From Paramecium tetraurelia (Eukaryota > Ciliophora > Oligohymenophorea > Peniculida > Parameciidae): DNA of 64,000 nucleotides. The translations under genes and the position numbers were made by a program. Below are positions 29,827-55,187 of the stretch, in pieces (the first letter of the stretch is position 1; each line of letters begins with the position of its first letter). Location of the stretch: assembly GCF_000165425.1 (NCBI RefSeq), contig NW_001799466.1, positions 392,851 through 456,850 on the forward strand. Reading direction: 5' to 3'. The notes beneath the pieces were generated by a model. The model worked only from the letters and a program-made list of their open reading frames with translations, searched no databases and had not been told where the DNA came from.

Positions 29827-32800
29827 ATGTCACAAATCAAGCAAACTTAAAGAAATTCAAAAAATTTGGACATGCAACCCCAGCCTTAGGCATAAATTCA
29901 AGGAAGCCAAAAAATACCTTAGGGACAACAAGAAAAACAGAACTAATAATAACCCTAGGCAAGAAAAGGTGGCCCAGATCAGACTACCAAATTGAAGAAT
30001 CCAAATGATACAAAAACATACGTATTGATGACATTGTAAACTCAGTAGTCTTTGATTTAACCTGAGACCAGTCGATAAGAGCAAAGTTAGGAGGTTAAGA
30101 TTGCTAATTAAGAGGCTCCACCAAAATTTGCTTGTCTTAAACCTCGCCCTGATCCTGTTTTAAATTGGGAAACCCACCAAGAGAAGAAATTGTATAGTGA
30201 ATTCCAGGAGTTTATAGAATCTCGCTACCTAGAAGTTAAGAGAAGCTCGAGCATATATAAATATTATGCTAAAATAGGACTTCAAGTATTTATTTACATT
30301 TTAAATGTCCTTGAACTAATTTTTACTTTAAGCTACAAGTCCTATAATAACATTCCTGATAATGAAGTATTTTATTTGGGTTGCTACCATATCTCTATTA
30401 TTGGCTGTGCTTTACTTCACAGTGCAACCTGGATGTATACATATAAATTCAGATAAGTTGCCAAAAAGAGTTTGTTTATAGAAATTTCTTATTATATCTT
30501 TTACATGTTTATGGGAGGATTAAGCTTTTTTAAAATAGCTCCATTTATCTATTATTACAACAGAGACCAATCAATCACGTAGTTTTCTTTCAGTTAAATA
30601 AATAAATACTTGATTTTAGATGGAGAAGATAAATTTAGAAATCCTTGTATGCTTTTCAAACACAGAACAAAACCAGTCAATATCTTTAGAGATTTAATTT
30701 TCCATAGGATTGCTCTTCTTTCCATGATGATAACAATGTGTCTTCAAACATTCCCTTAACTCTTTATCCAAGGCTTCTACAATACAGAACATGAATGGGA
30801 TGGCTTCAATGTTTTTAGTTATTTATTGCTAATAAGTAATTTAATCTATTACCTTTTGGAATTGCAATTTATTGTTTTCACAACAACTTATAGATAGATA
30901 CAAACAGAGCTTCAATTTAAATTGAAGAAAATAAAATTAAAGTTCATTTAAGAAACTAAACAATTATTAAAGTCGGATAAAAAATATCTGGGATTTGTTA
31001 AATCTTTTTATTTTCACATTGATCCAACTACATTTAGCTCTTATCAAAAGAAACGATGCATAGTTTAAATTATCACATTCTTGACTAGATATAAGAAATT
31101 CTAAAATGTATAATTTTTATATATTGATTAATATGATGAAGTTACGTTGTAATATTTAGCAAATTGTTTTAAATTGATTTAAGTAGAAAACATTAGCCTA
31201 TAATATAAAGACGCAAACAAATTAAAAATGTTGTAAGATACTTTTAAACCATAACAATTTCCAAAAATAAAGATTGAACTAATGCAAGACTAAAATGTTG
31301 ATTAATTATGGGATACAGATAAAATAGATGCCAATGCAGAAGAATAAAAAATTCAAGAAATTCAATTTATTGAAAATCCAAAGATTAATGCTGGTTGGTA
31401 AGCAGTAGCATAAAACTAAAAAGCTATGAGAGAATATATTGAAATGAGTTATCATTTTATTAAATTGATACCCGATCATTTAAGGAAATCAGTCAGATTA
31501 AATTCTAGATCATATGGAACAGGCACAATATAAAGTTAAATTAACATTGCTTAGACTGATAGATAAGAAACTTAAATTGATATCGCTACAGAAGCAAAAA
31601 TTCAATTTCAAAATATATCTAAAAAGGAAATCTTGGAGGAAAGCTTAGGATATTTTAAATGTTTGATGACTTATATTAACTATTTCGAAACCTGGGGCCA
31701 AATGAATTAATATTAGGCTACCATGTAATCTTTATAGTCATTTTTGAATGGGGGTTTGCAGATAGTCTCACTTGTTTACATAGGAGATGATCCAGATAAA
31801 TTTTAATCTGCATTAATTGTATTAACTGTTATCATTCCTGTTATGCAGATGTTATCCTTTATGGTGTTTCAACATAGAGTGTTTAAGACTTTAAATATTT
31901 AAAAATAAATTTAGAATGTTCTACTTTTTGCTATTTTTAACTTCTTAAAAGTTTGGGATATTGTGATGATTGCAATGTATTTTTTCTCAAAGAAATTTTT
32001 TTCTACTTTAGAGAGAAAGTTTAGTGCTGAAGGATATATAAAATTTAAAAGCTATGCCTCTAAATTCTAAGGTAGTCTTCCTATTTCAGTATTTTAGTAT
32101 GAAACTGTTTAGGTTGATTCTAAGAGCATTTTGGCAATAAAATAATTACCATTTTATTAGGCAGTTATGTGGAGAACTAGTGTCGAAGAAGCTTTGAATA
32201 AGATTCCTTAATTCTTTATCTATATTTTAGCATTATCATCTACTGGTTTAACTGCAGTGTGGGCAATGTCTTTTTTCCAGCAGATAAAGGAGGGTGTTTT
32301 GGCAGTCAAAGATATATTAGAAGTTGTTATTAAAGATTTCTTTATACCAGCACTAATTTTAAGTACGGTTTCTGTCGAATAATTCTTCTAATCCATGTTG
32401 TATTTGAGTTCAATATCAAATTAGTTTTTGTTAGAATATCCTAAATCCTTCTAAATCATGTCGAAAGTTGATGAAAAATATTTAAAAGAAAAATGTACTT
32501 TTAAAATTAACATGGAACACATGGATTTTTCAAATTACAAAGAGAAAAAAAAAGAGAAGATACTGGCCTAGTTTAGGTATGTTCTTGCTTCTATACAAAA
32601 TATCTTAGAAATAGATAAAGCATAAAGATTATTTTGCATGGGACCTGAAATAAATGATTTTGTCAGATGCTTAAAAGTTAGTCCAATTTATTAATTGAAG
32701 CTCAATTTCAATTTAGATGAAGTAAACCCTCTTGATCTTCCTCATATTAATGCCTTTATTAAATGTTGTCCCCCATAATTACAATTTTTACAAATCTAAG

Positions 32801-33399
32801 TTGAAGCAACAGAAGAAATAAAAATGCCCTTTTGTGTTGAAAGAAAAGCTACTCTTAAAGCCTTCTCTTATTCTTATTTCTAGATAATTTAATAGTACAA
32901 AGATAGTGCTTAAGTTGTTTAGCAAAAAAGTTTAGATGTAAACAAAGATTTTTTAGAATTAGATAGGTACGATTTTGAATAATTCTATTTTGAAATTGCA
33001 GGTAACTTAAATTTAGAATAGTGTTCATAATTATTTGGAAATTTCAAAGAAATGAAGATTTTCCAGTTATCCATTAATAATAATGCCATAATGCAGAGCT
33101 TTAACTTTTCTGATAACATAAAAAGCAAATTGGAAGTTTTGGATATCACTTTTGAAAATATAAGATTAGATTTTTAATAATTTCCATTTAACACCCTTAA
33201 AACTCTTAAAATGAATTTGAAAAGATGTGAATTTAATAAGGCAGGATTATATTAAAGCTTAGTAAATCTAAAAAACGGAGAATCTAAAGTAATTTTAATA
33301 GATTTGAGTTAATGCTCATCAACTTTTACAAAGGCTGAACATTCAAATTTGGTGAAAGCATTAGAATAAAATAAATTTGATGTAACCATTATAATATGA
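29827..33399 (+). CDS. Large intronless membrane protein with XK-related-like modules
   Basis: A single uninterrupted ciliate-code frame of 1190 residues from ATG 29827 (MSQIKQTQRNSKNLDMQ) to TGA 33397-33399, without any intron. N-terminal 110 residues are Gln/Pro-rich. The first membrane block (about residues 145-350) contains LLHSATWMYTYKFR and ALLSMMITMCLQTFPQLFIQ; the second block (about 620-850) contains SVEEALNKIPQFFIYILAL. The F-P-Q-L-F-I-Q and I-P-Q-F-F-I-Y turns resemble the (F/V)PQLxLQ motif of XK-related (XKR) scramblase-family proteins. Between and after them are soluble, helix-rich parts; the C-terminal 250 residues have leucine-rich-repeat-like spacing (KLEVLDITFENIRLDF, TLKTLKMNLKRCEF). 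I do not recognise the whole protein. Function in lipid movement would be inference only. Confidence 0.75.
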
Positions 33400-34302: not shown

Positions 34303-36078
34303 TCATGTATTCTAACCCAATTATTTTAGAGAATCACTCTATTATTTTATAAAACAATCTTGAAATTCTTTGAACTTAACTAGCAAGTTTAACAACAAAT
34401 CTAATTTGTTAAGTCTAACTAATTATTAATCTTAATCGGAATCTTTATTGGAATCTTCACATTTTACATAATTGAAATATTTATTCAAATAGCAATTACT
34501 TTATTTATCTTCTGAAGTAATTTCCTAAAGATCGAGTGTCTTTGGATATTTTTCAATATTTTCAAAGAACTCAAAGGACCCATCAACATCCACACCCTCA
34601 TATACTTTCTACAGCAAATTTGTTATAATTAGGTTTGCATTATTTGATTGAATGAGGGGATATTGAATAACACCATCTACTGAACGATTGATATATTTTT
34701 TTATATCAAGTCCCAACGAAACTACTTTTATTTGCATTTGCTAAGCCATATTTAGTTGTATTTAAAGTTTATGAAATGGATAGTTATAAAAAGAGTGATT
34801 AATAAAAATCAAATATTTTTTATATTGGCTAAATCTTTCAAATTGATCAAGTACTAACTAAAATTTATTGTGATTATCATTTAATGGCACCTTATTACAT
34901 TAATCAATTAGGCTTTATATTAATAAGGTTTATTCCTAATCAGTCCAGGAAGTAGAAAAATTTTACTTGATAATATTTTGAGTATGATTTAAAATCATTA
35001 AATTGCATACAAGTGAACATTACTTACATATTTCGATAAATTAAAATAAAAATGGTAATAGAATTTATTATAGGGTTTCCTTTTCAATCTAACTTAAATC
35101 TAAAACAATCTAAAAAAGATAAAAAGACTTTCCTCCTTTATTTTTTTTCTTCATTATATCCCTAGCAGTTCCATTTGTGCAAAAGAATTTGATGATGCCT
35201 TTTATATCTATTGTAGTTCCTTTTGAAGATAAAGAATACTTCGTAAATTTACTTACTTCCAGCAATGCTTTAATATCATTTGCTTCTTTAGAGTCAAGTT
35301 GGGATTCAAATTCAGAAGTTTTTTTAATTTCTTCTGCCTCGTCCAACAATTTTTAGACTATTTTTTCTGTCCTTATTTTTTAATTCTCTACAATTTGATT
35401 TAACAATTCTATTAAATTTTTTGAATTACTGATTGTTTGACCATTTTCAATGTTGATAATATTATAATCAAATTTGTCCTATATTTGAATAATTGAAGTA
35501 AACCCTTCATCTAATAATTCCTCTTTACATTTATTTGACATTTCCAATAATTATTTTGTAAATAATAATATAAAATCATTTTTGTGCTAAATTTCTTCAT
35601 CAACTATAATAAAATCCTTTTTGCATTTACCATTTACAGCATGTAAAATTGAATCTAGAAGATTTACAGATAAATAATCCTATTTTTGTTTTAAAAATAT
35701 CGCTTTGAACTATCCTGATAAGATGATATCATAAGTCAAATTAAGAAAAGAAAATTGTAATAACAATAATCCTAAATGTTAAAAATATTGCTACTCTAAT
35801 TATTACTCTGTAATTATAATTCTAAAAGTAAATTTTTTGATAATGTTCCAGATTTCTTAGGAATCCAACCATTCTTCATAAAGTTTTTACTCTGCTTAAA
35901 TAATTAATTTATTATAATCAGTGTAGTTTATGTTTGTAAAAACCTCTGATTATTATTTAAATTTTTGAGGTTACAAAGTATTATAAATTTTACTATTAGA
36001 TTTGGTAACTTTAGTTTTTAAATAAATATTTGAATCCAAATAATCATCAAAAAAATATTTTTTAATATTATTCATATT
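34303..36078 (-). other. VWA-domain segment of the giant gene (possibly a separate reading frame)
   Basis: This frame differs by one base from the AAA part. It continues from the last repeats and also has its own ATG at 36078 (MNNIKKYFFDDYLDSNIYL). A helical half is followed by STTIDIKGIIKFFCTNGTAR-like sequence (midasin: NMRKVIPYIAS) and a VWA fold: FYLFQIVLDLSQIEKETLQQ, KFQLVLDQFERFSQYKKYLI, MQIKVVSLGLDIKKYINRSV. The MIDAS motif DxSxS is degenerate (DLSQI at about 35085-35100), so metal binding is doubtful. In midasin the MIDAS domain docks substrates such as Rsa4 and Ytm1. Confidence 0.6.
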
Positions 36079-39000
36079 TAAAGTAATTGAGTTTGTTAGT
36101 TTTTAGTTATTTTATTAATTAACATTCCGATAGGAATCTGTTTAATTATGCAAACTAGTAGAAGTTGTATATATTTATATTTGCTATTATTCATTATTAG
36201 AAATTGATTGTTGAATTATTAATTATTTAGAATTAGTATTTGCAAATGGTTATGTTTATTTATCAGTATTTGAAATTTATGATTATAGTGAGGCTGTCTA
36301 TTAACCATTTTTAGTATCTGACGATTATTATGACTATTAGGCATCATTAGTATTTGATGATTATGATGTCTATTATCCATTATTAGTATTTGATGATTAT
36401 GATGTCTATTATCCAATATTAGTATTTGATGACTATGATGTCTATTATCCATTATTAGTATTTGATGATTATGATGTCTATTATCCATTATTAGTATTTG
36501 ATGATTATGATGTCTATTATCCCATTTTTAGTATTTGATGATTATGATGTCTACTATCCATTATTAGTATTTGATGATTATGATGTCTACTATCCAATAT
36601 AGGTATTTGATGATTATGATGTCTATTATCCATTATTAGTATTTGATGATTATGATGTCTATTATCCATTATTAGTATTTGATGATTATGATGTCTATTA
36701 TCCATTATTAGTATTTGATGATTATGATGTCTACTATCCAATATAGGTATTTGATGATTATGATGTCTATTATCCATTATTAGTATTTGATGATTATGAT
36801 GTCTACTATCCATTATTAGTATTTGATGATTATGATGTCTACTATCCAATATAGGTATTTGATGATTATGATGTCTATTATCCATTATTAGTATTTGATG
36901 ATTATGATGTCTATTATCCATTATTAGTATTTGATGATTATGATGTCTATTATCCATTATTAGTATTTGATGATTATGATGTCTATTATCCAATATTAGT
37001 ATTTGATGACTATGATGTCTATTATCCATTATTAGTATTTGATGATTATGATGTCTATTATCCATTATTAGTATTTGATGATTATGATGTCTACTATCCA
37101 TTATTAGTATTTGATGATTATGATGTCTACTATCCATTATTAGTATTTGATGATTATGATGTCTACTATCCATTATTAGTATTTGATGATTATGATGTCT
37201 ACTATCCATTATTAGTATTTGATGATTATGATGTCTACTATCCATTATTAGTATTTGATGATTATGATGTCTATTATCCATTTTTAGTATTTGATGATTA
37301 TGATGTCTACTATCCATTATTAGTATTTGATGATTATGATGTCTACTATCCAATATAGGTATTTGATGATTATGATGTCTATTATCCATTTTTAGTATTT
37401 GATGATTATGATGTCTATTATCCATTATTAGTACTTGATGATTATGATGTCTACTATCCATTATTAGTATTTGATGATTATGATGTCTATTATCCAACAT
37501 TAGTATTTGATGATTATGATGTCTATTATCCATTGTTCGTATTTGATGATTGTGTATTTTAATTGTTAGTTTTTTTTGTTTGTAATTATTATTCTTATTA
37601 TTTTTATTCAATTTTTTCTTCACTTATCTCCTATGCTTATGAATTTTTATTCATATTTTATCTATAATCATATCCTTTTTTGTTATTTTCATTAGAATTT
37701 TCTTTCTTATATACTTTCTCCAAATCATTATAATTTGTTAAATTTTAATTTTTTGTCTGGTCATGATTATATTATTTGGATTTATTTTAATCTTTTTTAT
37801 TTTTATTTTTTTCATTCCCATCTACTTCATATTCTTATTACTTTTTATTTTATTAATGTTACTTTTCCTTTTATTCTTATTTGTCTTATTTAGATTCCTT
37901 ATTTTCATCTTTTTAAGCTTTTTCACATATTTTCTCTTTTAAGATTTTTTTTTTTTCTTATTCTTCTTTTATTTCTTTTTCATATTTTTCGACTTCTACT
38001 TGTATTTTTTCAATATCCCCAGAAACATCAACATCAATCTCTTTCATTAGCTCCTTAATTTCTTTTTATTTGTTACAAATCATTTTTTTAACTTCATAAT
38101 CATCATGTTTCAACGTTATTCCAAATCTTTTTAATTTTTTTAAAAATCCATCATCAAATAATTTCGAAAATTTTTTAAAAACATCTCTTATTAGATTTAC
38201 TCCATTTATAATTAATTACGCATTCCAAGAAATTGGCTTCCTACTCTTATGCTCTTCATTTTAACAAAATGAAAATGAAATTATAAAATGTGCAGCAACT
38301 CCAAAAATTACATCACCAATAAATTCAATTCCTATATATTTGATTTGAATCAATTTAAGATCAAGTTGAAGCCAGGAAGTTTTATCGAATTCCAAACTAC
38401 CTTTTATTCTTGGTCTAAATAGTTATAGTTCTAAACATAGTTTGCAATATTTTCTATCCCATTAGAAATCACAACTTAAAGGAAAACCTTTCCCTAATAT
38501 GTATTTTGAACATGTAGTAAAAGGAATATTATCAAAGATTTTAGCCGATAATTTCGCTGTTAAATCAAAGCAACTATTTTTCACATCAATATTGTAATTT
38601 AAACTGATATCAAAATCAATACAAGTTATTGTAAATTTAGCCCAACCTTTCCCAATATATATATCTCCATTGTTGAATAATAGAGTACTAGATGTTGCAA
38701 AATTTTAATTTCCTTCTTAGTCTTCTATAAATATGAAAACAGGTTTATATTTTTTCCACGATAATGAAGTTTCCTCTAAATCCTATAATTCAATTTTAAA
38801 ATTGGAAAATTTTAATTTATCAAATTTTTACAAAAGTGTATGAAATTTAGTATCCTTTAACTTGTGCATTATTTCTTTAGGAAAAATTGGATTAGTAAGA
38901 TCTAAATCGATTTCCCCATTGAAAAATAATATTCTTTCTGTTTTCGTAAAGAAATCAAAAAAATTTTCTGGAAAAATTTTTTCCATACAAAATATCTCCA

Positions 39001-42000
39001 TTGAATTTTATAGATTTGAGTTAGAAATTTCAACTACCCATGTTTTTGGAATAAAGTGATAATAATTAAAAAGAATGAGATTTACCTTATTTTTATAGAC
39101 TTCCCCAGTTAAATTTCCTAAAAATTCAGTTATCTATTAATTTTTTACTTTAAATTAACATTTTCCATTAAAGCTCATCCCAACTATTCGAAAAGCCTTA
39201 TTATAAACAAGCTCAAAATGACCTTCTTATGATTCTTATCCGAACTAAATATTACCTTTATATGTTAGGCTTCCAAAATCTTTATAAAATTATGTCAATT
39301 GAAGATAAATTTTATAACTTGGAAGAGTTTCTGATTTCAATTGAAATGAACATTTTAAATTTGCATTTTCAAAGGAAAATTCTGGACTTTGAGCCTTAAG
39401 TTCCTTTAGATTCTAATATTATATTTATAAATCGAATTCTTATGGGAGAAAAAACAAAATAATTTTGAGCTCTTATTTTATTTGAGCTCTACAATTTGCA
39501 AACCAACTAAATTCTCGCTTATTTATTTCTCCCTTTTCAATAAGTTTCAAGTAATTTACATAATTTGTATTTTCCTATAATTCCTTGAAAATAAAATTTC
39601 CATTTTAATTAGTATATATAAATAAGCAATCTGCTTTTTTTAATTTAAAAGAATAATCAAATTCACATAAATAATTAAATATATCCTTAAACTTCCTATG
39701 ATTATCAAATGAATATTAGAAAATCGCTGAATGATAATGATCTCTAAAATAAAGATTGATATTATGATATGGTTCTTTTAGTGTAACAAATATTTTGTCG
39801 TTTTGAAAAATTAAATCAGTTATTTATAGTTCCTATCTTGAAATGTCAAATCTGTCATATTCCTTCTCTTCCTTTAACTGGGCTCCATCTTTTTTCTAAA
39901 TATAAGAAAATATGTCCGTTCCTCTTAGAGAGAAAATGCTATTGTTCTAAAAAGTGAATTTTTTTTTTCCTTAATCATATTAAAGAGTAAATGGAATTTC
40001 AAAAATATTTACATCAAATTACAAGCTTAATTATGTGGATTTTGATTTGATTTCCAATATTAGAGTAATTTATTTAAATTATGTGATACCATTTCTGATG
40101 GATAAATTTTTCTTACATTCAAGTATTAAACTCTAAAAGGAATATGTCTTACTAAGTTTTAAAGTACATGAAAGATCCAAATACTTATTTTTAAAATCAC
40201 TAGAAAAAATAGGTAACTTAAAATCATAATAAGAATTCAAAATTTCTAGAAACTTATGTAAATTTTGTTCTAAATTAAAATTAAATTCAAATTGTTTTGT
40301 TTTCTCTAAAAGATCTATTTCGAATTCTATTCTAAAATCATTATGAGAAAACAAATTCAACTCAAACGACAAGTATAAAGTTTTCTTAAGTTTAGTATCA
40401 TCACTTATCTCAAAAGCTAATTAAATATTATCCAATTTTAAAGCATTTGTCAAAGTTTAAGTAGATACTTCATATGAAAGTTTAAATGAGGTATTACAAT
40501 TCCCCAATACCAGATAAACATTTAAATCATCATAATTTATTTTCCTAGCAAATACAATATCTATTTCTTTATTAAAAACAGCCAAAAAAAATTATTTCAT
40601 ACTAAATTTGAATCTAANNNNNNNNNNNNNNNNNNNNNNNNNNNNNNNNNNNNNNNNNNNNNNNNNNNNNNNNNNNNNNNNNNNNNNNNNNNNNNNNNNN
40701 NNNNNNNNNNNNNNNNNNNNNNNNNNNNNNNNNNNNNNNNNNNNNNNNNNNNNNNNNNNNNNNNNNNTCACTTTTCTCAAACGCCCCCCCCACCTTTCCC
40801 CCCCCCAACGCCTTTGTCAACGCCCACGTCGATCCTCATCTGACCGCCCAATGAGGTTTCCCTTCCCCATTACCCGATCCCCCCCCATCATCATCCCCCC
40901 CTTCCCTGGCAATACAATATCTATTTCTTTATTAAAAACAGCCAAAAAAAATTATTTCATACTAAATTTTGAATCTAATTAGAAATCACAATAGAATTCT
41001 TATTTTAATTAACTGAACTTGAGGTCTATAGAACCTAAAAGGAATTAATTTATTCTACATATTCCTGATAAGCAAGTTTCTTCCCAATCTTTTTTCCTAT
41101 AAACTAGATATCCATTCAATTCTTTGATGTTTATTAAATTAAAAATTTTACATTAACTATTTGCTATAAATAATTTTACTATATATTCCCACACTTAATG
41201 CTTTTCTAATAATAAAGAAAAAGAAAAATCCTGAACCTCAAACTTTGCATCCTTTTCAATAATATCTATTCCTACACTATTTTTTATGAATTAATTCAGA
41301 CTAAACTTCTCGATTATAAAAGAATTAAATTTTAGCTAATAATTTGGATTTGATTCCTAACTTAGAGAGTCTTAAAATTTTAAAAGAAAATCAACTTCCT
41401 GCTGAAAAAACAGTAATTTTACTTTTAAATCAGCATAACCTTCACTTCGTTTTTCGGATTATTAAAATGTTAATTGTATTTTTTCAAAAGTTAAGCCAGT
41501 GTACTTGGTTATAATATTTTCTTTCACAACATTTAATTCACCTTCAAATTCTTAAGATATAATATTGTAATTAAAGTATACAATATGATTTACTCTTGGA
41601 AATATATCTATTCCTTCAAATTAACGTCCAAGCAAACCAAAACCCAATTTGAAAGGATCGATTGACATTTGTAAAGATTTATCTTCTATTTCTAAATTTA
41701 GCGATCCTGTAGGATTTAACTAAAGTTCAAAGGTATTTAGAGGAAATCCTTTTAATGCTATTAATCCTTTCAAAATAAGCCCAAAACATTTATCAGATCC
41801 AAAAATTGTTAAATAGCAGTCACAAAGATTTATAAATTCAGATATTTTCCTTCGATTCAATAGACCTACGCTAAATTTCAACCAAACTGAATTATCCCAA
41901 ATTATCATTGATTCGTAAGTTTGCTCTTAATTCTATTTTTCTTAATCCTTTGCTTCTTACTTTTATTTTAATTCTTAAGCTATTTTTTCATCTTACATTT

Positions 42001-45000
42001 ATTTTAGCTTTTAAGCTATTTTTTCATCTAAACCAGTTTAAAATTTTTATTATTTTGATTTTGCCTCTTCAAAATCATAACCTTGAGATTGCATTTTATG
42101 TTCTTGCATTTAAAAAAACTATTAAAGTTCTTCTCCTAATTTTTCAAATTAATCCAAATTTAAAAATGATTTAGAATTCTCTTATTCAAATTATATTGTT
42201 TCAATTTCATCAAACCCTTTTACTTATGATAATTGCTTTTCCAAATCACTTGAGAAAGCAGCAATAATATGTTTTAATTTTGGGGAGTTCATCCCTTTTT
42301 TTAATTTCATAGTTAGACACTTTTCTAAATCTTAGCAAAAAAATCTCAAAAAATCAAACTCTAATTCAACTTCAATTGTAAGCTTAAGAATTTCAACAGT
42401 GAAACCTATTGTAAATTATGCAATTTTTGAATCAATATGGGAATATATTTGCATACTTTTTATTTAGAAATTTATTTTCTCAAAAATTTGAATATTCCAA
42501 TCAAACTCAATAATTATTTAAAAATTCCAATAAATTGCATCAGTGATAATATCAAGCTTCTTTATTGAAGTAGCTTTACTTTTTGATAACTAAGATATAA
42601 AAATATTGTTGTTTTCAAAATAATTCTAGAAAAATTTTTTAATTATTTTATCAGAATAAATTTAGTGTTATCCTTGAGGTAATTATTCAGTTAATTTGAA
42701 TATCATTGTGTTTTTTTGAATTATTCCAACTAAATTACCAATATCTTAATCTAGAAACTGAAATGCAAATTCAATACTTCCATTTAAAGCAATTGGTTAT
42801 TTTAGTTCTATATTTGTATCTATTTTATTAATTTTAATCCAAAATGGTAACTTATAAATTTAAATTGGTTTTTCACATCTAAGTTGTATTTCTACCCTTC
42901 TTTCTTCAAAATCAATATATGGTACAAAATTTTCACAAAAAGTAAGATTAATATTAGAAATTAAACTAAAACATCCAGATTCCAAAAAAATATTAACTAT
43001 ATTTTATTATGGAATACATATTTCTCCTCTATTTGAAATTAAATCATTTATTCTACCAAAATATCCTTGTTTGATAAAATAATAATTTAATTCAAGATGC
43101 AGATCACAACTTAGTTAAAATTAAGTAATGATATTTTCCTTGTTTGAGGCAAATTTTCCAGATATATCTTTTAATTTCAAATTGATATTAGGAAATGTGT
43201 AGTCATTTAAACTGAAATTTAAAATGATTTCTAAATCTTGATTTAGGAGCAATAAACATTCCATGTCTGATTTTGATAAAAGGTGTTTAAAAGTCTTAAA
43301 AAATTATTCTTAAGATGGCCCAATAAGGGATTTAATCAAAGGAACCAAAGATAAATCATTAGATTATTAATATTAAATTTACAATTAACCTCCAGGATTC
43401 AATCTTGCTTCAGCTAAAAACGTATATTACTAAAATTAACATTTTGACTTCATTATAAATTTTAACAATTCTTTGCCTTTAATGTATAAAGACAAGAAAG
43501 TAGGTTCAATCTTCAGAGTTTCCTAACATAATTAAATATTTAACTCTCCATTTACTTGAATTTCATAACAACCTAAGTCATATTAGTTTTCTGTTTAAAA
43601 ATTTACCAGCAATATTTATCTACTGATGCCCTCAATAAAACTCTAATAATTTTGAATATCATTATTTGATAATTATTTTTTTAAAAATTAACTTAAGTTT
43701 TTTAAATCCAACCATCTTTTAGTTTAGTCGTGGTTAACAATTTAAAAGGAATTAGACACTAATTTATTTAAGATTGTATCATTATATTTTTCTAGAATTT
43801 AATCAACTTGAAGTTGATGATTGAAATCAAAAATTGGAAAATCAGGATGATTTTTACATTCCTTAAAATCTGATCCAAAAAGGATCTCCATTGTTTAATC
43901 ATAATATTTTAATCCGTTTTCTTAAATCATCCTAAAAGCTTTGATAATACTCCTTAGATTAATTAAGCACTTAGATTATTCCTAAATAAAGATTATTTAG
44001 TTCAATATATTACTTGCCAAAATAACAGTATCTTCTAATTAAAGCTACTATCCCAAACCACTTCTAGTCAAAATTTCTATAACATCTATATAATTATCAG
44101 CAATATCAATTGAAAAGTTAATTTTAATACATCGATTATAAAAGGCAGGAGATAATATATGTTAGTCTTCCCTGGAGGGATTTTATACACATATTAAACG
44201 AAAATTCTTATGAGGAATGATACAGGAATTCGAGTCTCCAAACTCATTATTGAATAAGCGAGGTGAATCTTCTCCCAAAGAATTCAATCGTTCAACTATT
44301 TCAGCTCTTGCTAAATTAATATTGTCTAAAATTAACCAATATCCAAATTTACAACAAACCTTTAATACTCCTTCGATATATTTCATATTCATCCCCTATT
44401 TTTATTTTTTATTATATATAAATTTCTATTTTTATTTCAAAGAAATCCTCTCTAATTCTTATTAAATTTCATCGTAATTAGGGTCAACTAAAGCAAAATT
44501 CCCAAGTAAATCATCAGTTTCTAAATCGCAATGGATTGGCAGTAGAATAAATCTTTGGTTTAAAAGATTAGCCAATTTGATGATGCAGGAAGTTTTTCCT
44601 GATGAGACATCTCCTTAACATAGTATTACTTTCTTTGAATGAATAGCTATAAACAGCTTTTCAAAAATGGCTGAATTTTATAAGTTTATAACTAATGAAT
44701 TATTGGAAATTTAAGGAGGTACCTAATTTGATAAAATAAAATTGAATAACGGTTTAAAATCTTTTTCAATTTATCTGCTTATTCTGATAATGTTTGCATT
44801 TTGCTCTAAAAAGACTCTTCTATTGATCCATTCTTCCTCACTTAAACCAAACTTATCTAAGATTATTTTTATCACTTATTTTGTAAACTCCGTTTTATAA
44901 AAGTGCTATACATATATCATATCTAAACAAACAATTATCAATTCTAATTAAAGTTTTTCATCATTTAATTTTTATCTCTACTCCAAAATTTGTTAGCTGA

Positions 45001-48000
45001 AAAGTTACAATAGATTCTCCAAAAATCTAATATTAAAGTCATAATTTGATTTCATTTTTTATTATGCCAATAAAGCAAGCTCTTTGTGTAAATCCAACAT
45101 CAATTAAAAATTAACTCCATTATTTTATAAATGTTTAATTTCATTTTTATATCTCTATTAGAATATGTCTAATACTTAATCTATGCTGAATGCTTCAATA
45201 TAAACATCACACAATAGATTCGAAATACATAAAGGTAAGTCTTTTCTCCCTTCATATGAAGTGGGATTCATTGAGCATAAGAATACGCATTTATCTTTAT
45301 TTAATCTACTATCTTTTATTCTAATCTCCTTTTCATCTGTGTTAAATAAAGCCTAAAGTGTACTTAAAACTTCAGGAGATGCTAAATTAACTTCATCGAA
45401 TAATATTAAGCTCTTCTGTGATAATGCTTAAGCTAGATATCCTTCTTGAAATGTAAATGCTATTTGATCATTGTCAATCTTTGGAGCATAAGACCCAAAT
45501 AGATCTTCAACACTCAAAGAATCCGAACAACAAACTCTACAGTGTTCCTTTTTAATTATAGAGGCAAATTCTGATGCAATTGCAGATTTTCCAACTCCTG
45601 GTGGTCCAATAAGGCAAGGTATATAATTTGTAGTAATTGCTGAGTATATTCTTTGTAATATTTTTATTGTAGACGGATTCATGATGATTTTTGGAGAATT
45701 GAAAAACTATTTATCTTTTAATTTTTCTTAAATTTTGTTTAAAGCTTGTTTGTAATGTTCCTAATAATTAGCATCATTAATGACTTCTTCAAAAGTTATT
45801 CTATATTTGTCCAGAATAGTAAATTAAAATCCTAATGCTAATTTTTATAAGTGAGTAGCATCTATATCCAAATTCAAAAAGCTCATCCATTAATAGAATT
45901 TTCGATCAGATATATTTTCATAGTAGACTTCTTTAACTTCTTTAGTCCTTATTAAAACATCCTAAACAAACTTAATTATTTGATCACTCTCAACCTAATT
46001 TTTAATTTTACTTTATATAAATTTCTAATAAGAAATGTCTAGTATTTTTGTAGAATTAATGAGTTATGGAACTTATATTTTGATTTTTGTCAGTCTTGAT
46101 TACAATGCATCGCTTAATTAACCTCCAAAATTAGTATTTAATAATGCTATTACAAAAAATTCATTATGTAATTTAATCTCTTATCCATTTACAATAAAGT
46201 GTGGTTCTATTTCCAATAATGCATTTAATCCCTCTATAACTGATTAATCTGCCATGGATATGTTTTTTAAACAGACAACACCTCCAAATCTAGCATTAAA
46301 TGTTAATCCTCTTTCAATAAAAGGGAATTAGTTACCAATATTTTTGAAAACTTGATCAAAGAACGAAGGTTATTGATATTTATCATTCAATTATTTAAAT
46401 CTGCTTTCGATATTTATTTCATTTTAATTTATATTCTATTCATCTTTATCGAGTTTCTTAATTAAATTTTAACAATATTTTTCATAAGATTCTTGGTTAT
46501 GAGATTCCATACTCCCAATTAAGTCCGTTATCTCAGTTTATGAATTGATGTACATTAATTCGAATGGATAAGGATTCTAAAACTCTACTAGTTAGGCAAA
46601 TAGTTAGGATAAGTATGTTTTTGATGATGTTTTCCCCACAATTAAAATATTTTCTCTAAAATAACAGCTAAATGCTATTTTACATAAGACTAATCTTTAA
46701 ATAGGGTTTAGATTTTATTCTGCCGATTTATGAATGTTGTAATTTTTGCCAAGTTTAAATGGTATCGATATCTCAGCCTGTTGATTTTTTATTGAAAACT
46801 TAATGGTTTATTGTTTATATTCAATTTTACATTCTAAATCTTATTCTTCAGAGGCATTTTTAGGAAAAAGAATTATCTAATGTAATTGTAATTGATTTTC
46901 CCAATTAGGTTATTTAGTGGAAAAATTTGTTTTCTCCAAACGATTTCTAAATCTTATGAATTGTCTTAAAGTAAATTAGGTCCCATTGAAATTTAATAGA
47001 TTTTCATTGCCGTCTTTTGGATACGGTATTAGTTTGGTTAGAAAATATTCCATACCTTTTTTGATGCAATCTTAACTATCTTTCTTCATACTTAGTTGTG
47101 ACTCTGTGCAAATTTTAATTACTTCCTCATAAGGATAATTAGGAACTTCAACAACTATAACTTTAGAAGCTAATGTTTGTGGGAGCTCAGTCCTGCTATT
47201 ATAAGATGGAGGATTCTATGCGAAAAAGATTCTAAAATTTTCATGAACCTTTATAACTTTATTTGAAATAGGATCTTGAAATTCTGAAGGATACTTGGCT
47301 ACAGATGCTAAGAAGTTAAGTAAACTTGCATCTGAAAGGTTAGCCTCATCTATTAACACTATTCCACCTTACTCCATTCCTAAATACAATGGGCCTTTTT
47401 TTAGTATAAACTCCTTCTTATCTTAGTTGCATGATGATATATATTATCCCATTAGATCATTAACGTCTGTATTTTAATTCAAATTAATATAATGAAAAGT
47501 AGTTGATTCAAATAATTTGCATGTTTATTAAAATGTAGATATTACTTTTGTTTTTCCAACTCCTGCTGTTCCTTATAAAACCAAAGGTATTTTAGCAGCT
47601 ACAGCTACTGCAATTATATCAGAGACAATTTTCCTTGATGGAGTTACAACAAAATTGTTTTTCTTACTATCTTTTGATTATAATTACTAATAATGAAGAG
47701 GTACTTATATTTATTCACTTAAAAGAGACTTATTATCTTGTAAACTTAAAGCAATGAAGAAATCTATACATTGTATTACTTTTTATTACAAATTCATCTT
47801 AAATTGAGCTTCAGCGAATTTCTAGATTTCCTTGATTGGCTTTAAGAATCTGATTATTTTGTTCAATGATATTTATTCAATTTAGGTTTCTAAATTGGAT
47901 GAAGTCTTCCCATTATTCCCTGCCATTAATTTGGTAGTAATATCTCTTACAAAGTTTATATCAGATGGTATATTTGCTGATTAAAATAATTAAATTATAT

Positions 48001-50662
48001 CATCTTAATTTACTTGAAATTCTAAGAAAAAGCTTAAGAATCTGCTTTTTAAGGCTGGAGTGATTTTTTTATCTAATTCATGAAAATCAGATGAAACTGC
48101 AATCACAGCAAAATCTTAGTGTCTTTGGTATTTTTCATTCTACACCAATAATTAAAGAAATTTCTTTTCCAAAATTCCATTTAACGATTCTGTTAAGGCA
48201 CAATCTGGGGCTTCAAAATTAGTGAGGATTAACACCTTCCCTTGATGAAAACATCTGGTAACTGGTCCTATAATGAATTCAAATCCATTCTAAGTAGGTT
48301 GATACTTTCCAAATAAATCTTCCGCATTTGTACTAGAGGATAATTCCAGTATTTCATATTTTTCTATCTTCTGAAATTTTAACCAAAGAAGAATGCTTGA
48401 TAATTTTCCACAAAATTATTATCCCACTACTAATGCTGCTCTCTTAGTTTTGTAACATAAGGTCAACATTGAAAATAATGTTTCATGAAATGAGAGAACC
48501 TTTAACTCATTTGTATTGTTCCAATTCATAATTTCAGTATCCCTCTTTGATTTTGTTTAATCAAATGCATCATTTGTATCAGCAATAAATTTGTTTTGAT
48601 CTATTTGATAATTTATAAGATCACGATTCTTTTTTAAATAAATGAATTATGTTGAGATTAATTTCATACAATCTTTTAGAGGCAATAATTCAAATATTTT
48701 GTCCTTGTCTTATTCAAATGAAACAAAAATGAAATCAATAATTTAAACTATATCTCTTAAGGTAAAAAGTCCATCATCCATATTTTTCAATTTAATTTCT
48801 TCATAAATCATCATAATCAGAAAGGATAATTATTAAATAGATATCTTTTGCTCTGGCTATTTCTTCATTTCTTGTAACTTTGAGACTAAAATTTAATCAA
48901 CAATGAAATTTAAATCATTCATACTCATGGACTCAAACTTTATGGGAATGAATTGGCTCATCAAAGATGGAGAAAAGATATTTCTAGATGCTGCAAACTT
49001 TGAATCAGTTGCTGGATTTTAGGTTAAAAAGAGTTTAAAATTTTAATGTTTCTTTATTGTTAAAGTTCCGTCTATTTAATCTACATGAGAATTTATAGAA
49101 CTGCCATATAAAGTGATATATCCAAGCTCAAGAACATCTTCAATAACTCTTAGTATTGAATCACTCGCTAAATTTGCCTCGTCTAAAAGGATCCATGAAC
49201 CCTCTTATACAGCTTAAGCAAAAGGGCCTGGTTAGAATTCAAACTTAAATCCTGGTAGAATTTCAACTTTGCCAATAAAATCAGAAATCTAAGTAAATGA
49301 ACTCAAATTCATTATTATTAATGGCTACTTATTTTTATAAGCCAAATATTAAATTATCGACGTCTTTCCACATGCAGCACTGCCTTCACATAAGATTGGG
49401 TTATCTCCATTTATAGCAGTTTCCAATTAAAGTAAATGTTTCTTTACACTTTGAGTTTCAGCGTAAGTGTCCATATTTGGAATCAATTCCTTTAATTTTG
49501 AATTCGCCTGATAATTAAGGTTTAAAACTCTATAATCTACTAAAGGTAAAAACCGAAACTACACATTTAGGTTTACTAAAGTTGTAAATTTTGGATTTAA
49601 GTTCTCAAAATCTTACTGGTATTACTACATCAAGAGTTCAGTTGATTTTGTTTTGTTTACATCAGTTAAAATTCCTTACAAGGCTCTCTTTTTCACTTGA
49701 GAGGCTATTGTCAAGCATTACGTTGGATATGGGGGTCTTATTGATATATCAGGAGGCAAATTTTCAAGTAATAATTGATTTTTATTGTCCAAAAACATTA
49801 AGTTTTCGTCCAAGAGAGAAACATTAAATTAAATTATATTAGGAATGCTTTTGATTTTTTACTACATTTAGAAGTTTGAGTTAATTGAATAAATATGCAA
49901 GGTTTAGGATGAGTCAAGTAAAAGTATCTCCTTTTTCTTTTTTCTGTATCCTACCTTTATTATATTTTAAGGAGGATCTGACAAATTTTGCTGAATCTCT
50001 TTTTCTATTTAAAATCCATCTTCAAATTTTGCAAGAATAATGACTAACTAACTTGATTTGTTTTGAATCAATAAAAAGGAATCTTTCTCTTATTCTTCTA
50101 TTATTTTGCAGGAGACACAATTATTAAACTTTTAGACCTCAGTTTAATTTTCTACAGCTAGCACTAAACAAATGGAATTATGATTGTTCTATTGAAATTC
50201 ACAAAGAATTTAATCAAATTTCTTAGATATTGTAAATTGTTCGATTTAATTAAAATCTGATTATATTTTCTTGATGACTTTGTTTAAAAAAATATCATAT
50301 AGCACTAGATCATTTTTAAAAATGAGTGCGCAAATTCTACTATTGCACCAATCTACCAACCTTAACTGAGTAGTTGGAATTTGTATCTTTGTCACAGGAG
50401 TAAAAGATTTTTCTAATTATGCAGAATAAAGATTAGTTAATTTATCCTGTTCTTATTCTTCAAACATAAGTAGAAATTATAAGTTTGGATCACAGACTAC
50501 ACTTTGAATGTTGACATTAGTTAATTAGTACTCTCTAAAAATAAGACAATCAGAATCAAATATTAATATTTCTGAGTCTGATTTATTCTTCGATAAAATA
50601 GTCACCTTGGTGTTACGTAGTGATAGTTGTTAAGCATTAGATGCCTAGAATATGATACTCAT
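34303..50662 (-). CDS. Giant midasin-like AAA protein (six AAA modules plus VWA)
   Basis: ATG at 50662 (MSIIFQASNAQQLSLRN), TGA at 34303-34305; no intron was needed in about 16 kb. After a 400-residue N-terminus come six AAA modules, the count of midasin (Rea1/MDN1) and dynein. P-loops: CEGSAACGKTS (about 49360-49390), VVGQQFCGKLS (about 48395-48425, degenerate), LQGTAGVGKTK (about 47545-47580), IVGKTSSKT (about 46620-46650, degenerate), IGPPGVGKSA (about 45580-45612), CQGDVSSGKTS (about 44585-44620). Walker B: LLDEANLAS, LIDEANLSDAS, LFDEVNLASPEV. GLNALLEIEPHF and NFRIFFAQNPP are midasin-like. Then follow about 1900 residues of strand-rich sequence, a Lys/Glu/Gln segment, the 36-bp repeat array and a VWA domain (GGKSFYLFQIVLDLSQI). 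Midasin removes assembly factors from pre-60S ribosomes; this protein is far diverged. About 5330 residues if the gap artefact (40551-40910) is removed. One extra base near 36513 breaks the frame before the VWA part. Confidence 0.72.
36338..37550 (-). repeat. 36-bp in-frame tandem repeat, about 33 copies
   Basis: On the minus strand the unit is ATGGATAATAGACATCATAA followed by TCATCAAATACTAATA, 36 bp. In the frame that continues the giant gene it codes GQQTSQSSNTNN, with all Q from TAA/TAG. Variants are scattered (CTA for TTA, CCAATATAGG for CCATTATTAG, CATTTTTAG). The CCAATATAGG variant recurs at spacings of 144 and 108 bp, multiples of the unit, pointing to recent segmental expansion. Because 36 is divisible by 3, other frames are open too, including a His-rich one. 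One copy (about 36505-36520) carries an extra base. Confidence 0.95.
37551..38060 (-). other. Lys/Glu/Gln-rich low-complexity linker in the giant gene
   Basis: Between the strand-rich middle and the repeat array the frame codes a highly charged run (EVEKYEKEIKEEQEKKKILK, KDENKESKQDKQEQKEKQ). It sits where midasins have their acidic D/E-rich linker, but it is mixed charge rather than acidic. A run of 12 T on the plus strand (about 37945-37956) makes the frame sensitive to miscounting. Confidence 0.7.
38060..43750 (-). other. Strand-rich middle region of the giant gene, unrecognised
   Basis: About 1800 residues with repeated alternation of hydrophobic and polar residues (for example GSLNLEIEDKSLQMSIDPFK, LDLTAKLSAKIFDNIPF, FRPRIKGSLEFDKTSWLQLD), typical of beta strands in consecutive modules. 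The pattern hxGxhxhxhxx...F recurs but I could not set a clean repeat length by eye. A short charged, coiled stretch (EKIAQKLKQMQDEKIAQELK) lies near 41930-42010. Midasin's linker at this position is mainly helical, so this part may be a lineage-specific replacement. Confidence 0.5.
40551..40978. other. Assembly gap with flanking duplication and GC-rich junk
   Basis: 150 N (40618-40767) are followed by 40768-40910, a C-rich stretch (runs of 7-10 C) unlike anything else in the window. The 67 bases before the gap (40551-40617) recur almost exactly after it (40911-40978), differing by one T in a run of 3 or 4. The giant frame is open on both sides in the same phase, and the right copy is in frame. 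The simplest reading is that the two flanks overlap and the gap plus C-rich tail are artefacts of a poor read end. Confidence 0.85.
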
Positions 50663-50724
50663 ATGAAATAATAATAATAAATAAGATAATTGACATTTTC
50701 TACAAATTTAAAGTCATAGAATTA
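50663..50724. promoter_or_regulatory. Short bidirectional promoter candidate
   Basis: 62 bp separate the ATG of the giant gene (minus, 50662) from the ATG of the WWE-like ORF (plus, 50725). It is AT-rich (aataataataataaataaga). No specific motif is recognised; the role follows only from the divergent arrangement. Confidence 0.35.
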
Positions 50725-51060
50725 ATGATATCATCTAGATCTACTTTAAAAAATTTGATCTTCTAAGCCTAAAAGGAATTGATATCCTCAAAATACTATC
50801 TCAATTCCTAATGGCAGAGCTAAACATTTACTTGTTATGAAAATATGGAGTATATAGAATAACATTTTTATTCTAGAAGGTAATAAGAATTTTCATATAT
50901 ATAATTAGATTAAGAGAAAGTCAGTTGTTATATCAATTGTAAGGATAACTTGAATTTATAGGAAAATTAGCATAGAATGTTATAGCGAAAGTAATATATG
51001 AAAGATAATGACTATTAAATCTCTATAATTTTAGATCAATCTTATCTCCTGTTTTTCAGA
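50725..51060 (+). CDS. WWE-domain-like small protein, divergent from the giant gene
   Basis: ATG 50725 (MISSRSTLKNLIFQAQKEL), 62 bp from the giant gene's start on the other strand. About 105 residues are clearly coding-like: a helix, then SQWQSQTFTCYENMEYIEQH, FYSRRQQEFSYIQLD, QEKVSCYINCKDNLNLQ, ENQHRMLQRKQY. The order W..Y....YIE..F......F.YI.....V..Y.I....L..NQ......R follows the WWE fold, which binds iso-ADP-ribose or mediates protein contacts in ubiquitin and PARP proteins. No in-frame TGA occurs before the frame runs antisense into the zinc-binding gene, so the 3' end is unknown; an intron or a lost stop is possible. The coordinate given is where coding sense fades. Confidence 0.45.
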
Positions 51061-52882
51061 GCGCATTCTCAAAATCAAAGTCAAATTCACTCGATTTTCT
51101 TTGTTCATATACTTCAAAACAAGTCTTGTGAAATGTAAATTCTGTCTCTTCTATTTTATGAAGAATCTAATTGTCAGCTTATATTAATTATATGCATGAA
51201 TAACAGGAATCAGATACATGTATAGAACAATTATTATAAGCTAAATTTAATAATTAGCTCTCTATCATTCTACTACAAGAACCACATTTTTTTTACTAAA
51301 AGTAAGGTATATCAATTTCTGTTAAATTATTGAATTTCAATTGATTGTTAATAGCTTTTTATTCTATTTTATTCTAACAACTTGTATCTATCTCTTCTAA
51401 TGTAAATCTGAACAGTGACTTTTCTTTGTTAGATTTATTTAATTTTGCATCCTTCTGTTAATATTCACTTTTGAGAATTGAAATCGTCTTAGGCAAATTA
51501 TAACTAATTAAAGAAGATGTTTTTAATAAATCTGAATCAATATGGACATTCTTTTCTATCATCTATGTAGCAAGAATAACAGCTTTGAATAATTATTCTA
51601 ATCTCTTAAAAATTGGGTAGTATTTGGATATTTTCTCATAAATCTCACTAAATTTTTCTGCAAATAAAACACCTTAATCATTAGAGTCCTTAATATCTTT
51701 TTCAATTATCTATTATTTCATTATTTCTATTTGCTTAGCTTTACATTTAATTTATATACTTTCTATTAAGAATTAGCCATCTTAATAACTATAAACACAT
51801 TTTTAAGGATAAAGTATAAACTTGTAAATCTACTAAGATCCCATCATGCTCCCAAAATTCTGGTATGATTTCAATCCACATAATTCTAATTCTCTTGGGT
51901 ACTTAAAAGGAGTTTTCCCATCTGCTGCAATACCCAAACTTATTTGTTACAATTAATGACTACTTTCAAATAACACTTTTGCAAATTCAGTATCGTTGAT
52001 TACATTTCTTTTTACAAATTCATCTGGCCAATTGAGTTTCTCCTATTATTACACTTCTTCTTAGTTCAAAGAAAAAACAGGATTTAAATTAAATTTGATC
52101 ATCTTTTCTTATTTTGATAGCTTTGGATCACTTAAGACCAATAATGCTGTTGCTAAATCAGTTAAGTGTATATCTTCTTAAACATCTATGAAAAATTTCA
52201 TAGAATTAAAATTAATCCCTCTAATTTTCTTTTCTAATTCTATTTCATCTTTAAATTGACCTAACATGTTTTAAAATTATGGTTTGCTCTCATATTATTC
52301 TAATTTTTAATCCTCTAATCCAGGCATTATTCCTTTATCTATTTATTCCTATAATTGATCCAAATTTGAAATCCAATTTTCGTAATTTCTTTTTTTCAAA
52401 GGATTTCGTTTAATTGCTTCTTCTAAAAAAAGAATTCTGGATTAAATTAGTTCATGTTATAGATCCTTTTAATTCATGTTATTCAGAGTTGATATAATTA
52501 CCTTATTGAAAATGCCATCCTTCGTTGTTCTGCATATTTTCTAGATAAAAAGAGTGGCATTTCTAGTTCCTAAATTCACTAATGTATCAAAGAACAAATA
52601 AGCCGTATTTGGATCCACTATTTTTTCAACATGATTTTTGATGTACAATTAATAATAGAAATTAATGATTTCATCCATTGATAATTCTTCAACATCCTTA
52701 GCCATTGGTATATCGCCTTCTTTCACTCCTAATTTTAAATACTTTTCTTTATGAAATTTGCCATAAATATTTTACGACACCCCATAATTTATTTTTTCTT
52801 ATTGAATGTCGTAATGAACTTTCTCTCTTTAATTTTCAAGAATATGTTAAACTATTATCTCAAATTTATTAATTTTCGACAT
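51056..52882 (-). CDS. Helical protein with C-terminal zinc-binding module
   Basis: ATG at 52882 (MSKINKFEIIVQHILENQRE), TGA at 51056-51058, 608 residues, no intron. The first 500 residues are helical with no family recognised (for example FFDTLVNLGTRNATLFIQKI, FKDEIELEKKIRGINFNSMK). The C-terminal 90 residues have ordered Cys/His pairs: CGSCSRMIES, NNCSIHVSD, SCYSCIQ, ILHKI, TFHKTCF. The CxxC...C.xH...CxxC...H...HxxC layout resembles a LIM or treble-clef zinc module. It lies upstream of the giant gene on the same strand, 394 bp away, in the same intronless, AT-rich style. Confidence 0.6.
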
Positions 52883-52972
52883 CAATTCCAATAGAATTAG
52901 AAAAATAATATAAATTCTGAATTAAATTACAAATCAACAGCTCTAATAATATTACATAATAGCATAAAAAAG

Positions 52973-53566: not shown

Positions 53567-53915
53567 TATTAATGACAAGGAATCTAATATAGAATTCCCT
53601 AGTCTTCATTTCCATATCAATCATTTTCTTAATATATTTATTATATTTATTGAATTATACATAATTAAATCGAATTATCATAAAATAATAAATTCAAGAC
53701 AGAGGCATCTGAACATTTAGTTGAATAATATTATTCAATTTATTTTAGCAGATTTGCTTTTCCAAACAATATGATCTATAGGAGAAATTAAATGAAAGAG
53801 CAAATATACTTTAATGTATCTTAAAAATGAACGGTTGACTAATATCATTTAATCTATTTCAATCATCATAAAAATCTGTAATTTATTTGTCGTCATTCAA
53901 TATTTATTAATAATA

Positions 53916-55187
53916 ATGAGTTCTGCTATTCACCTTCATATTGGAGGAGCTGGAGTAATGATAGGAGATGCACTATGGAAACTTTATTAAAAGGAGCAAG
54001 AGGAGACAAATGTTAAGAGTTATATTTACAATGAAAACGATAATAATCATCCATTATCTATGTTTATTGATTTAGATGATAGAATGGTAAACGAAATCAA
54101 AAAGGATAAATCTGTTAACTATAAATCTAACTCTTTTGTTACTGGCAAGGAGGACTCATCAAACAACTATTGTAGGGCACATTATTCAATTGGAAAGGAA
54201 TTAGTTGAAAAATGTTTAGATAATATTAGAAAGTAAGTAGAAAGTGTGGGAAGAATAGATTCATTCATTATTACGTCTGCTCTAAGCGGTGGCACAGGAT
54301 CAGGTTTTACTTCTTTGCTTTTACATAGATTATATGTTGAATACGGAGAGAAGGTCAATAGAAATGCATTCTTGATTTATCCATCTAAAGAAATATCGAA
54401 CAATACAGTGGATATCTATAATGCTGTTCTAGCAACTCGTATGACTATAGAACATTGTAATTCGGTTGTTATGTTAGATAATCAATCTATGTATAATACC
54501 ATTGATTCTCAGATTGGTTTAGATTATGTTGATTATTCTCACCTAAATAATTTAGTATGCTAAATAATTAGTTCTTACACTGGTTTAAGAAGATACAGTA
54601 ATATTGATAATGGCAAATTATTTACTGGGCTTTGTCCCTATCCATTAATTCATTATGTGATACCCTCATATGGACAATTGGCATCCATAAATGATTAGAT
54701 TAATAAATAATTAAATGAAAAATAACTGATATAGTAAATAACAAAACCAGCTCAAAGATTATTTTATTCAGAAATGAAACCTGAACACATTTGTGCATCC
54801 TTTGTTCATCGTTCTCAACACTAAAATAAATTTTTTGGTTAATAGGATTTGACACTTTAAAGAATGAAAATTAAATATTAAGCAAATCCAAATGTGTTTT
54901 AATGTTAATCTAAAAATTATACAGTAATTCCAGAACTTGCATAATTAAAGTAAACTGCTATATTTCTGTCTAATGATGCTTCCTTGTTCAATTACTTTGA
55001 ATTACTTGGTAAGAAGTATGATTTAGTATACGCTAAAAGAGCATTTGTTCATTGGTTTGTTGGAGAAGGTTGTGAATCTGGGGAGATGTCAGAATGTAGA
55101 GAAAATGTGGCTTATCTGAGCAATAACTATGAAGAGCTGACAGATGGAGCGCTCAGAGTTTGCTAAACGTAAGTAGATGATGATTGA
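53916..55187 (+). CDS. Highly divergent alpha-type tubulin
   Basis: ATG 53916 (MSSAIHLHIGGAGVMIGDAL), TGA 55185-55187, 423 residues, no intron. The tubulin signature SALSGGTGSGFTSLLLHRL is intact, and alpha-like features are RAHYSIGKELVEKCLDNIRK, CQIISSYTGLRRYSN and AKRAFVHWFVGEGCESGEMS near the end. The changes are large: the N-terminal GQAG(I/V)Q is GGAGVM, and the helix-8/T7 region (alpha: NVDLTEFQTNLVPYPR) reads NIDNGKLFTGLCPYPL, so the catalytic Glu254 that drives GTP hydrolysis on the partner beta subunit appears to be Lys. The C-terminus is QTQVDDD, without the usual acidic EEY tail. Paramecium carries extra tubulins; this looks like a fast-evolving, perhaps specialised or inactive, alpha-like paralogue. 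Confidence 0.85.

Follow-up and report, generated by a model that had tools for sequence, protein, structure and literature searches.

Six AAA modules concatenated in one polypeptide mark a special subclass of AAA+ proteins, in which dynein, RNF213 and Rea1 are placed (PMC11603028). In yeast Rea1 (midasin, Mdn1), AAA2-AAA5 are described as functional, with AAA5 providing the arginine finger for the AAA4 site, and the same source reports helix-2 inserts in modules 2, 4 and 6 and an AAA6 lacking its small domain (PMC6286127). The consensus of the metal ion-dependent adhesion site (MIDAS) is given as DXSXS...T...(S/T)DG (PMC6624252). In the (LAP1-Torsin)3 model, finger-less AAA+ modules alternate with nucleotide-free modules that supply the fingers, giving three active sites (PMC4358337). 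Here, we examine a 64,000-nucleotide stretch of Paramecium tetraurelia DNA (contig NW_001799466.1, positions 392,851 to 456,850; "the window"), whose minus strand carries, from 50662 to 34303, a giant gene read with TAA and TAG as glutamine (NCBI table 6). Its product is probably a midasin-class AAA+ giant with an alternating ring of three composite sites, separate from the organism's own midasin.

A proposed alternating AAA ring

The first 3,245 residues, counted from the ATG, are matched by Pfam AAA_5 in six stretches (total E 4.6e-72, 240.9 bits). This profile search of the translated frame confirms the six modules proposed in an earlier note on this DNA, and the motifs quoted there (GQQFCGKLS, GKTSSKT, LILDNINLA and DLSQI) are all present in the translation. 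That note had called some of the motors degenerate, which holds for the altered Walker A of modules 2 and 4 and the Walker B of module 6, but it had overlooked the loss of Walker B from modules 2 and 4 and the alternation of the arginine fingers. We aligned the six window modules with those of a second copy of the gene and of a canonical-looking midasin from the same genome (both described below), taking approximate module borders. The Walker B DE pair is found only in modules 1, 3 and 5, the corresponding residues of modules 2, 4 and 6 being TN, KN and DN, while the arginine-finger column, assigned from the alignment rather than from a structure, holds R in all three even modules (2, 4 and 6), with Q in module 1, K in module 3 and L in module 5. 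Sites 1/2, 3/4 and 5/6 would therefore be complete, because in each the next module would give the finger, as Rea1 AAA5 does for AAA4; interfaces 2/3, 4/5 and 6/1 appear to lack parts from both sides.

Three fingers placed at random fall on the modules that follow the three intact ones in 20/400 arrangements, a test set after the pattern had been seen. The motif residues examined, lost positions included, are identical in the second copy at 48/48 positions, compared with 71.8% over 1,535 other module positions. As judged from these alignments, the motif losses are an ordered pattern and not decay. Module 4 additionally has an insert of roughly 55-60 amino acids (aa) in helix 2, and module 6 a helix-2 insert followed by a lid-like motif, LINLRSIIKAFR.

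Relation to midasin and other known systems

A search of the PDB at E≤0.01 returned nine sequences, with five midasin chains first (E 3.1e-74 to 4.1e-71; 253 bits for the best). The other four are NorQ/CbbQ chains, the strongest of them at E 4.4e-6, and neither dynein nor RNF213 is represented at this threshold. Neighbouring modules are collinear, window modules 1-2 aligning with what is read as AAA3-AAA4 of the midasin chains. Taken singly, the module profiles score best against midasin module 3 (modules 1, 3 and 6) or module 4 (modules 2, 4 and 5), the preference of module 5 for midasin module 4 amounting to 0.1 bit only. A tree of 18 AAA modules resolves only the pairing of the two copies, and comparison of single modules does not decide whether the ancestor was midasin itself or another AAA chain of the midasin class. 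The lid scores of the window protein lie below the respective cut-offs, at 14.9 bits for AAA_lid_7 (cut-off 22.7) and 12.5 bits for MDN1_4th (cut-off 27).

The earlier note asked for a search for a second, canonical midasin, and one was found. It is an ordinary-looking midasin in a separate open frame, C190:167167-179238 (loci L020-L021). Its translation scores 748 bits to solved midasin chains over the first 1,944 residues, and its VWA region matches solved midasins at E 2.1e-43. Its MIDAS reads DDSLS, and it gives the only midasin-lid (AAA_lid_7) match above the Pfam cut-off in the genome. Because this gene exists, the window protein is best regarded as a divergent relative, separate from the organism's own midasin. 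The C190 midasin has complete sites 2, 3 and 4 only, departing from the AAA2-AAA5 set of Rea1; the Walker B of its module 5 reads KN where DE would be expected, AAA5 being described as functional in yeast Rea1.

The window protein resembles midasin in having six AAA modules per chain, a long tail after module 6 and a C-terminal VWA-like region. Its predicted complete sites (1/3/5) are nevertheless not those described for Rea1 (AAA2-5, PMC6286127), it has helix-2 inserts in modules 4 and 6 but none in module 2, and its lid-like motif follows module 6, where Rea1 AAA6 is described as having no small domain. Moreover, its tail is apparently of β type where the midasin linker is helical, a Q/S/N/T repeat stands where midasin has a D/E stretch, the MIDAS residues are lost and the N-terminal region has no match in Pfam above cut-off or in the PDB at E≤5. 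Since it departs from midasin in four defining features, namely the catalytic set, the helical linker, the D/E stretch and the MIDAS, we would regard it as a midasin-class variant rather than as a midasin proper.

The closest analogy for the motif pattern may be the Torsin-LAP1/LULL1 ring, in which, as proposed, finger-less ATP-binding modules likewise alternate with non-catalytic finger donors to give three active sites (PMC4358337). Both copies of the giant gene show alternation of this type, with exceptions at module 6, which has Walker A and the Walker B aspartate, and module 3, which has K. Unlike that ring, the window protein has all six modules in one polypeptide and of MoxR/dynein type (AAA_5), and no Torsin or LAP1 homology was detected in Pfam at E≤1 or in the PDB at E≤0.01. 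Dynein heavy chain and RNF213 are described as sharing the six modules in a single chain (PMC11603028), and Pfam AAA_7, the P-loop containing dynein motor region, matches the window protein at 55.8 bits, compared with 240.9 bits for AAA_5. Bacterial MoxR-VWA-β-propeller systems also combine a MoxR-type AAA with a VWA, some of these VWAs being reported without MIDAS aspartates (PMC7159879), although AAA and VWA there lie on separate proteins; Pfam bpMoxR exceeds its cut-off (34.4 bits, two stretches), far under AAA_5. Among the open-licence PMC papers listed in literature searches, we found no description of a ciliate midasin relative of this kind.

Tail, linker and C-terminal region

The hydrophobic moment of the middle region peaks at 170 degrees, and the ratio of the 170- to the 100-degree moment is 1.29, compared with 0.98±0.05 in 200 shuffles (z=+6.1). 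The ratio is 1.32 in the middle of the second copy (z=+5.3), 0.84 in the linker of the C190 midasin (z=-2.4) and 0.95 in the window ring (z=-0.8); mean strand and helix propensities are alike in the window middle and the C190 linker. The strand-rich middle of the earlier note is thus borne out as a strand-like periodicity, that is, an apparent alternation and not a demonstrated fold, and the helical midasin linker would have been replaced by about 1,700 β-periodic residues. For the tail, nothing in Pfam or NCBIfam rose above cut-off, and PDB profile searches gave nothing at E≤5. Pattern searches of GTDB contigs (for the tail) and IMG/VR (for the tail and the N-terminal region) hit 171, 239 and 74 stretches, none confirmed as a relative by tblastn, and hhalign comparison of overlapping windows (1,042 aa and 2,034 aa) found no internal tail repeat above 6% probability. 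DUF6603 (PF20248), considered as a candidate family for the tail, was rejected, with no match in the tail Pfam scans or in the genome, the latter a weak test as none was found in 14 control genomes either.

Where midasin has its acidic linker, the window gene has a Q/S/N/T repeat, as the earlier note had it, coded by a 36-nucleotide (nt) array: 200 aa of the window linker contain 5.0% D/E, 36.0% Q/N and 28.0% S/T, against 34.1% D/E in the D/E-rich linker of the C190 midasin. A charged segment of 191 aa ahead of the repeat has 20.4% D/E. The repeat unit is 12 aa in the window gene and about 24 aa (by eye) in the second copy, which suggests that the linker repeats turned over independently in the two copies. 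In the second copy, the repeat of differing unit is a Q/N-rich tandem array within locus L029 (C183:1-4461).

The C-terminal region aligns weakly with midasin VWAs, the alignment being collinear and ending at the MIDAS DxS position. On our reading, the MIDAS residues are replaced in both copies, by DLSQI in the window gene and DLSSI in the second copy, and by INHS, a later strand reading FINHS at the expected SDG position. Of the VWA with a broken MIDAS proposed earlier, the DLSQI is present, but the VWA fold is not established, the matches being weak and none of them above cut-off.

Gene structure, second copy and selection

The window minus strand is open for 3,298 codons (40817-50713; first ATG at 50662), the longest of 119 open reading frames (ORFs) of at least 150 aa in the window, and the gene goes on in two more open pieces (36344-40816 and 34303-37650) to a TGA stop at 34303-34305. 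It is interrupted twice, by a region of gap and junk (40618-40925) and by an extra G in the 36-nt repeat at about 36522. At the former, a TGA (40817-40819) sits within G-rich junk adjoining 150 N (40618-40767), and the flank MKQFFLAVFNKEIDIV stands on both sides of the junk and the N; with its duplicated flank and spurious in-frame TGA, this region is probably an assembly artefact. At the latter, one array unit has GGG where nearly all others have GG, which shifts the frame. Both breaks look mundane. Continuity of the gene across the gap is indicated by the second copy, whose open frame on C99 aligns with the tail on either side of the gap, at 47% identity ahead of it and at 34% in a short stretch beyond it. 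The single frame claimed earlier is accordingly broken at the junk TGA and the GGG unit, but the gene is real and its long open frame holds all six AAA_5 stretches.

Absence of introns had been taken in the earlier note to indicate an unusual history, which is not upheld. Introns of P. tetraurelia are reported to be 20-30 nt long in about 98% of cases (PMC5485702), and the C190 midasin frame, 4,024 codons long, is likewise unbroken, a single 22-nt intron being inferred close to its 3' end. Because that frame is equally open, the intron poverty of the giant gene is no sign of an unusual history and is unremarkable. Coordinates of the features are collected in Table 1.

Table 1. Features of the giant gene, in window coordinates.
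Feature	Coordinates	Strand	Remarks
N-terminal region, ~390 aa	49493..50662	-	without known domain; ATG 50662; 60% identical in C99 copy
AAA module 1	48521..49480	-	GSAACGKTS, WILLDEAN; finger position Q; Walker A/B intact, no arginine finger
AAA module 2	47669..48520	-	GQQFCGKLS (Walker A altered), LTNFEA (Walker B lost); arginine finger LKSRF
AAA module 3	46736..47668	-	GTAGVGKTK, LIDEAN intact; finger position K
AAA module 4	45704..46735	-	GKTS-SKT (Walker A altered), CLKNIS (Walker B lost); arginine finger LQSRL
AAA module 5	44711..45703	-	GPPGVGKSA, LFDEVN intact; finger position L
AAA module 6	43868..44710	-	GDVSSGKTS, LILDNIN (Walker B DE to DN); arginine finger FYNRC
Middle region, ~1,700 aa	38204..43867	-	β-strand hydrophobic alternation; crosses assembly gap; without known family
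Probable assembly artefact	40618..40925		150 N, G-rich junk and duplicated flank
36-nt tandem repeat, Q/S/N/T-rich linker	36295..37551	-	34.9 copies, 94% matches; one unit with extra G
Conserved C-terminal region, candidate VWA	34306..35628	-	DLSQI for DxSxS, INHS for SDG

For the N-terminal region, all Pfam matches fall below cut-off, NCBIfam likewise has none above it, and a PDB profile search gave no match at E≤5. A search of the genome (69 Mb, 231 contigs) for other copies of the architecture, which the earlier note had proposed, revealed one: C99:37740-47798, which reaches the contig end and has an open frame of 3,353 codons, together with C183:1141-4461, which holds the Q/N-rich repeat and the C-terminal region. 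From the contig-end positions and orientation we infer that the two pieces are one gene. When the genome was searched with the window protein or the midasin VWA, no additional relative came up. The genome listing of AAA_5 has 23 matches, six of them in the window gene, the second copy and the C190 midasin and 17 elsewhere; of four loci read among these 17 matches, two resemble dynein heavy chains and two, read on a single strand, were uninformative. Comparison of C99 from its start to the gene, and of C183:1-29500, with the window (E≤1e-6) gave matches inside the gene itself only. This comparison is small, since just 13 kb of the window's contig remain on the upstream side of the giant gene, and it speaks neither for nor against an origin by whole-genome duplication.

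Identity between the two copies is 63% across 3,215 aligned codons and 48% across 634 codons of the C-terminal part. In 300-codon blocks, the approximate ratio of non-synonymous to synonymous substitution rates (dN/dS) begins at 0.22 and amounts to 0.14-0.27 within the ring. Successive tail blocks give 0.27, 0.46 and 0.60, and those of the C-terminal part 0.48, 0.25 and 0.37, where the last block has just 34 codons. The low values in the motor ring indicate that the gene is maintained, with the ring evidently under purifying selection. Calling the gene fast-evolving, as the earlier note did, suits the later part of the tail (0.46-0.60), whereas the ring values do not support it.

Alternative readings and putative mechanism

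Several observations weigh against an alternating, midasin-class ring with a VWA-like tip. No window module is matched best by midasin module 1 or 6, and there is no one-to-one module match. The C-terminal region matches the C190 VWA alone at P 0.11 and four midasins at P 0.026-0.05, which is weak. Neither Pfam nor NCBIfam matches it above cut-off, HMMER detects no VWA in it, PDB profile searches return nothing at E≤5, and phmmer gives chance-level matches only (E≥0.59). Within the ring, the finger position of module 3 is occupied by K, ATP may still be bound by module 6, in which Walker A and the aspartate of Walker B are retained, and the sensor-2 columns of modules 4 and 5 align poorly. Motif columns are generally conserved in AAA proteins, such that part of the 48/48 identity is expected; the comparison is of two copies from one genome, and dS is about 0.7-1.4 in the larger blocks, which makes dN/dS approximate. 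Structure prediction from single sequences was unusable, with mean predicted local distance difference test (pLDDT) scores of 35.1 for the C-terminal region (441 aa) and 30.8 for the tail (816 aa).

The weak VWA match, which seven of 200 column shuffles equal in score, would also suit a separate origin, not from midasin as a whole, in which MoxR/dynein-type modules formed a fourth class of single-chain six-AAA proteins in addition to dynein, RNF213 and midasin, with a C-terminus that is perhaps no VWA at all. The missing one-to-one module match, the unresolved module tree and an N-terminal region and tail for which no match was found point the same way, but the AAA similarity goes to midasin, with modules 1-2 collinear with AAA3-AAA4, and the C-terminal match, weak as it is, is collinear up to the DxS position; we regard such an origin as possible, if doubtful. 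The two frame interruptions and several lost motifs might instead be signs, along with a rearranged tail, of a decaying midasin duplicate. Against such a pseudogene, one break is an assembly gap with a duplicated flank and the other a single base in a tandem array, long open frames survive in each copy (3,298 and 3,353 codons), and the ring combines dN/dS of 0.14-0.27 with identity at all motif residues examined, making decay very improbable. That midasins are the best PDB matches could mean that this is simply the species' own midasin, unusually diverged, an idea to which we give hardly any credence given the C190 gene with its D/E linker, DDSLS, midasin lid and 748 bits. Finally, as three sites at most could be catalytic and the odd modules have no fingers of their own, the ring might bind nucleotide, scarcely hydrolyse it and serve as a scaffold; Walker A, Walker B and the neighbour's finger are, however, retained at 1/2, 3/4 and 5/6 in both copies, and we think this improbable.

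In the alternating midasin-class ring that we favour, odd modules 1, 3 and 5 would bind and hydrolyse ATP, and even modules 2, 4 and 6, incapable of hydrolysis, would each complete the site of the module before it with an arginine finger. If the chain closes into a ring in module order 1-6, composite sites 1/2, 3/4 and 5/6 would fire, while 2/3, 4/5 and 6/1 would not complete. Such a force-generating or remodelling ring may use three-site hydrolysis to move the long β-type tail and the C-terminal VWA-like tip, with the tip holding its partner by a contact other than a Mg2+-dependent MIDAS one. As the MIDAS residues are gone, a Mg2+-dependent grip on ubiquitin-like (UBL) domains of the Ytm1/Rsa4 type is unlikely, and the protein might remodel some non-ribosomal assembly. 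More speculatively, and rather unlikely as a whole, the protein could represent a fourth, ciliate class of single-chain six-AAA mechanoenzymes, with a permanently wired trimer-of-pairs ring of three catalytic and three activator modules, a giant one-sided β-sheet arm (maybe a groove that binds lipid or some other polymer) in place of a helical lever, and a metal-independent VWA-like tip.

The number of sites that have to fire in an AAA ring, and their order, have long been in question, engineered mixed rings being the usual approach. If the alternating arrangement is correct, nature would have provided a ready-made test object, in which one chain holds three catalytic and three activator modules at fixed positions. 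It would also indicate that a midasin-type chassis can be re-purposed with a different tail and without a MIDAS.

Neighbouring genes

Beyond the 3' end of the giant gene, 29539-33399 (+) is open for 1,286 aa and matches nothing in Pfam at E≤0.001 or in NCBIfam at E≤0.01. Directly upstream of the giant gene, the ORF 51059-52933 (-) has a phage-type endolysin domain, matching the phrog_315 endolysin (60.1 bits, E 2.9e-16) and Pfam Glyco_hydro_108 (23.2 bits, cut-off 21.2), and was possibly acquired from a phage or bacterium. A divergent α-tubulin-like ORF at 53796-55184 (+) scores 260 bits to α-tubulin chains; the match spans residues 43-448, some 40 residues at the ORF start being additional.

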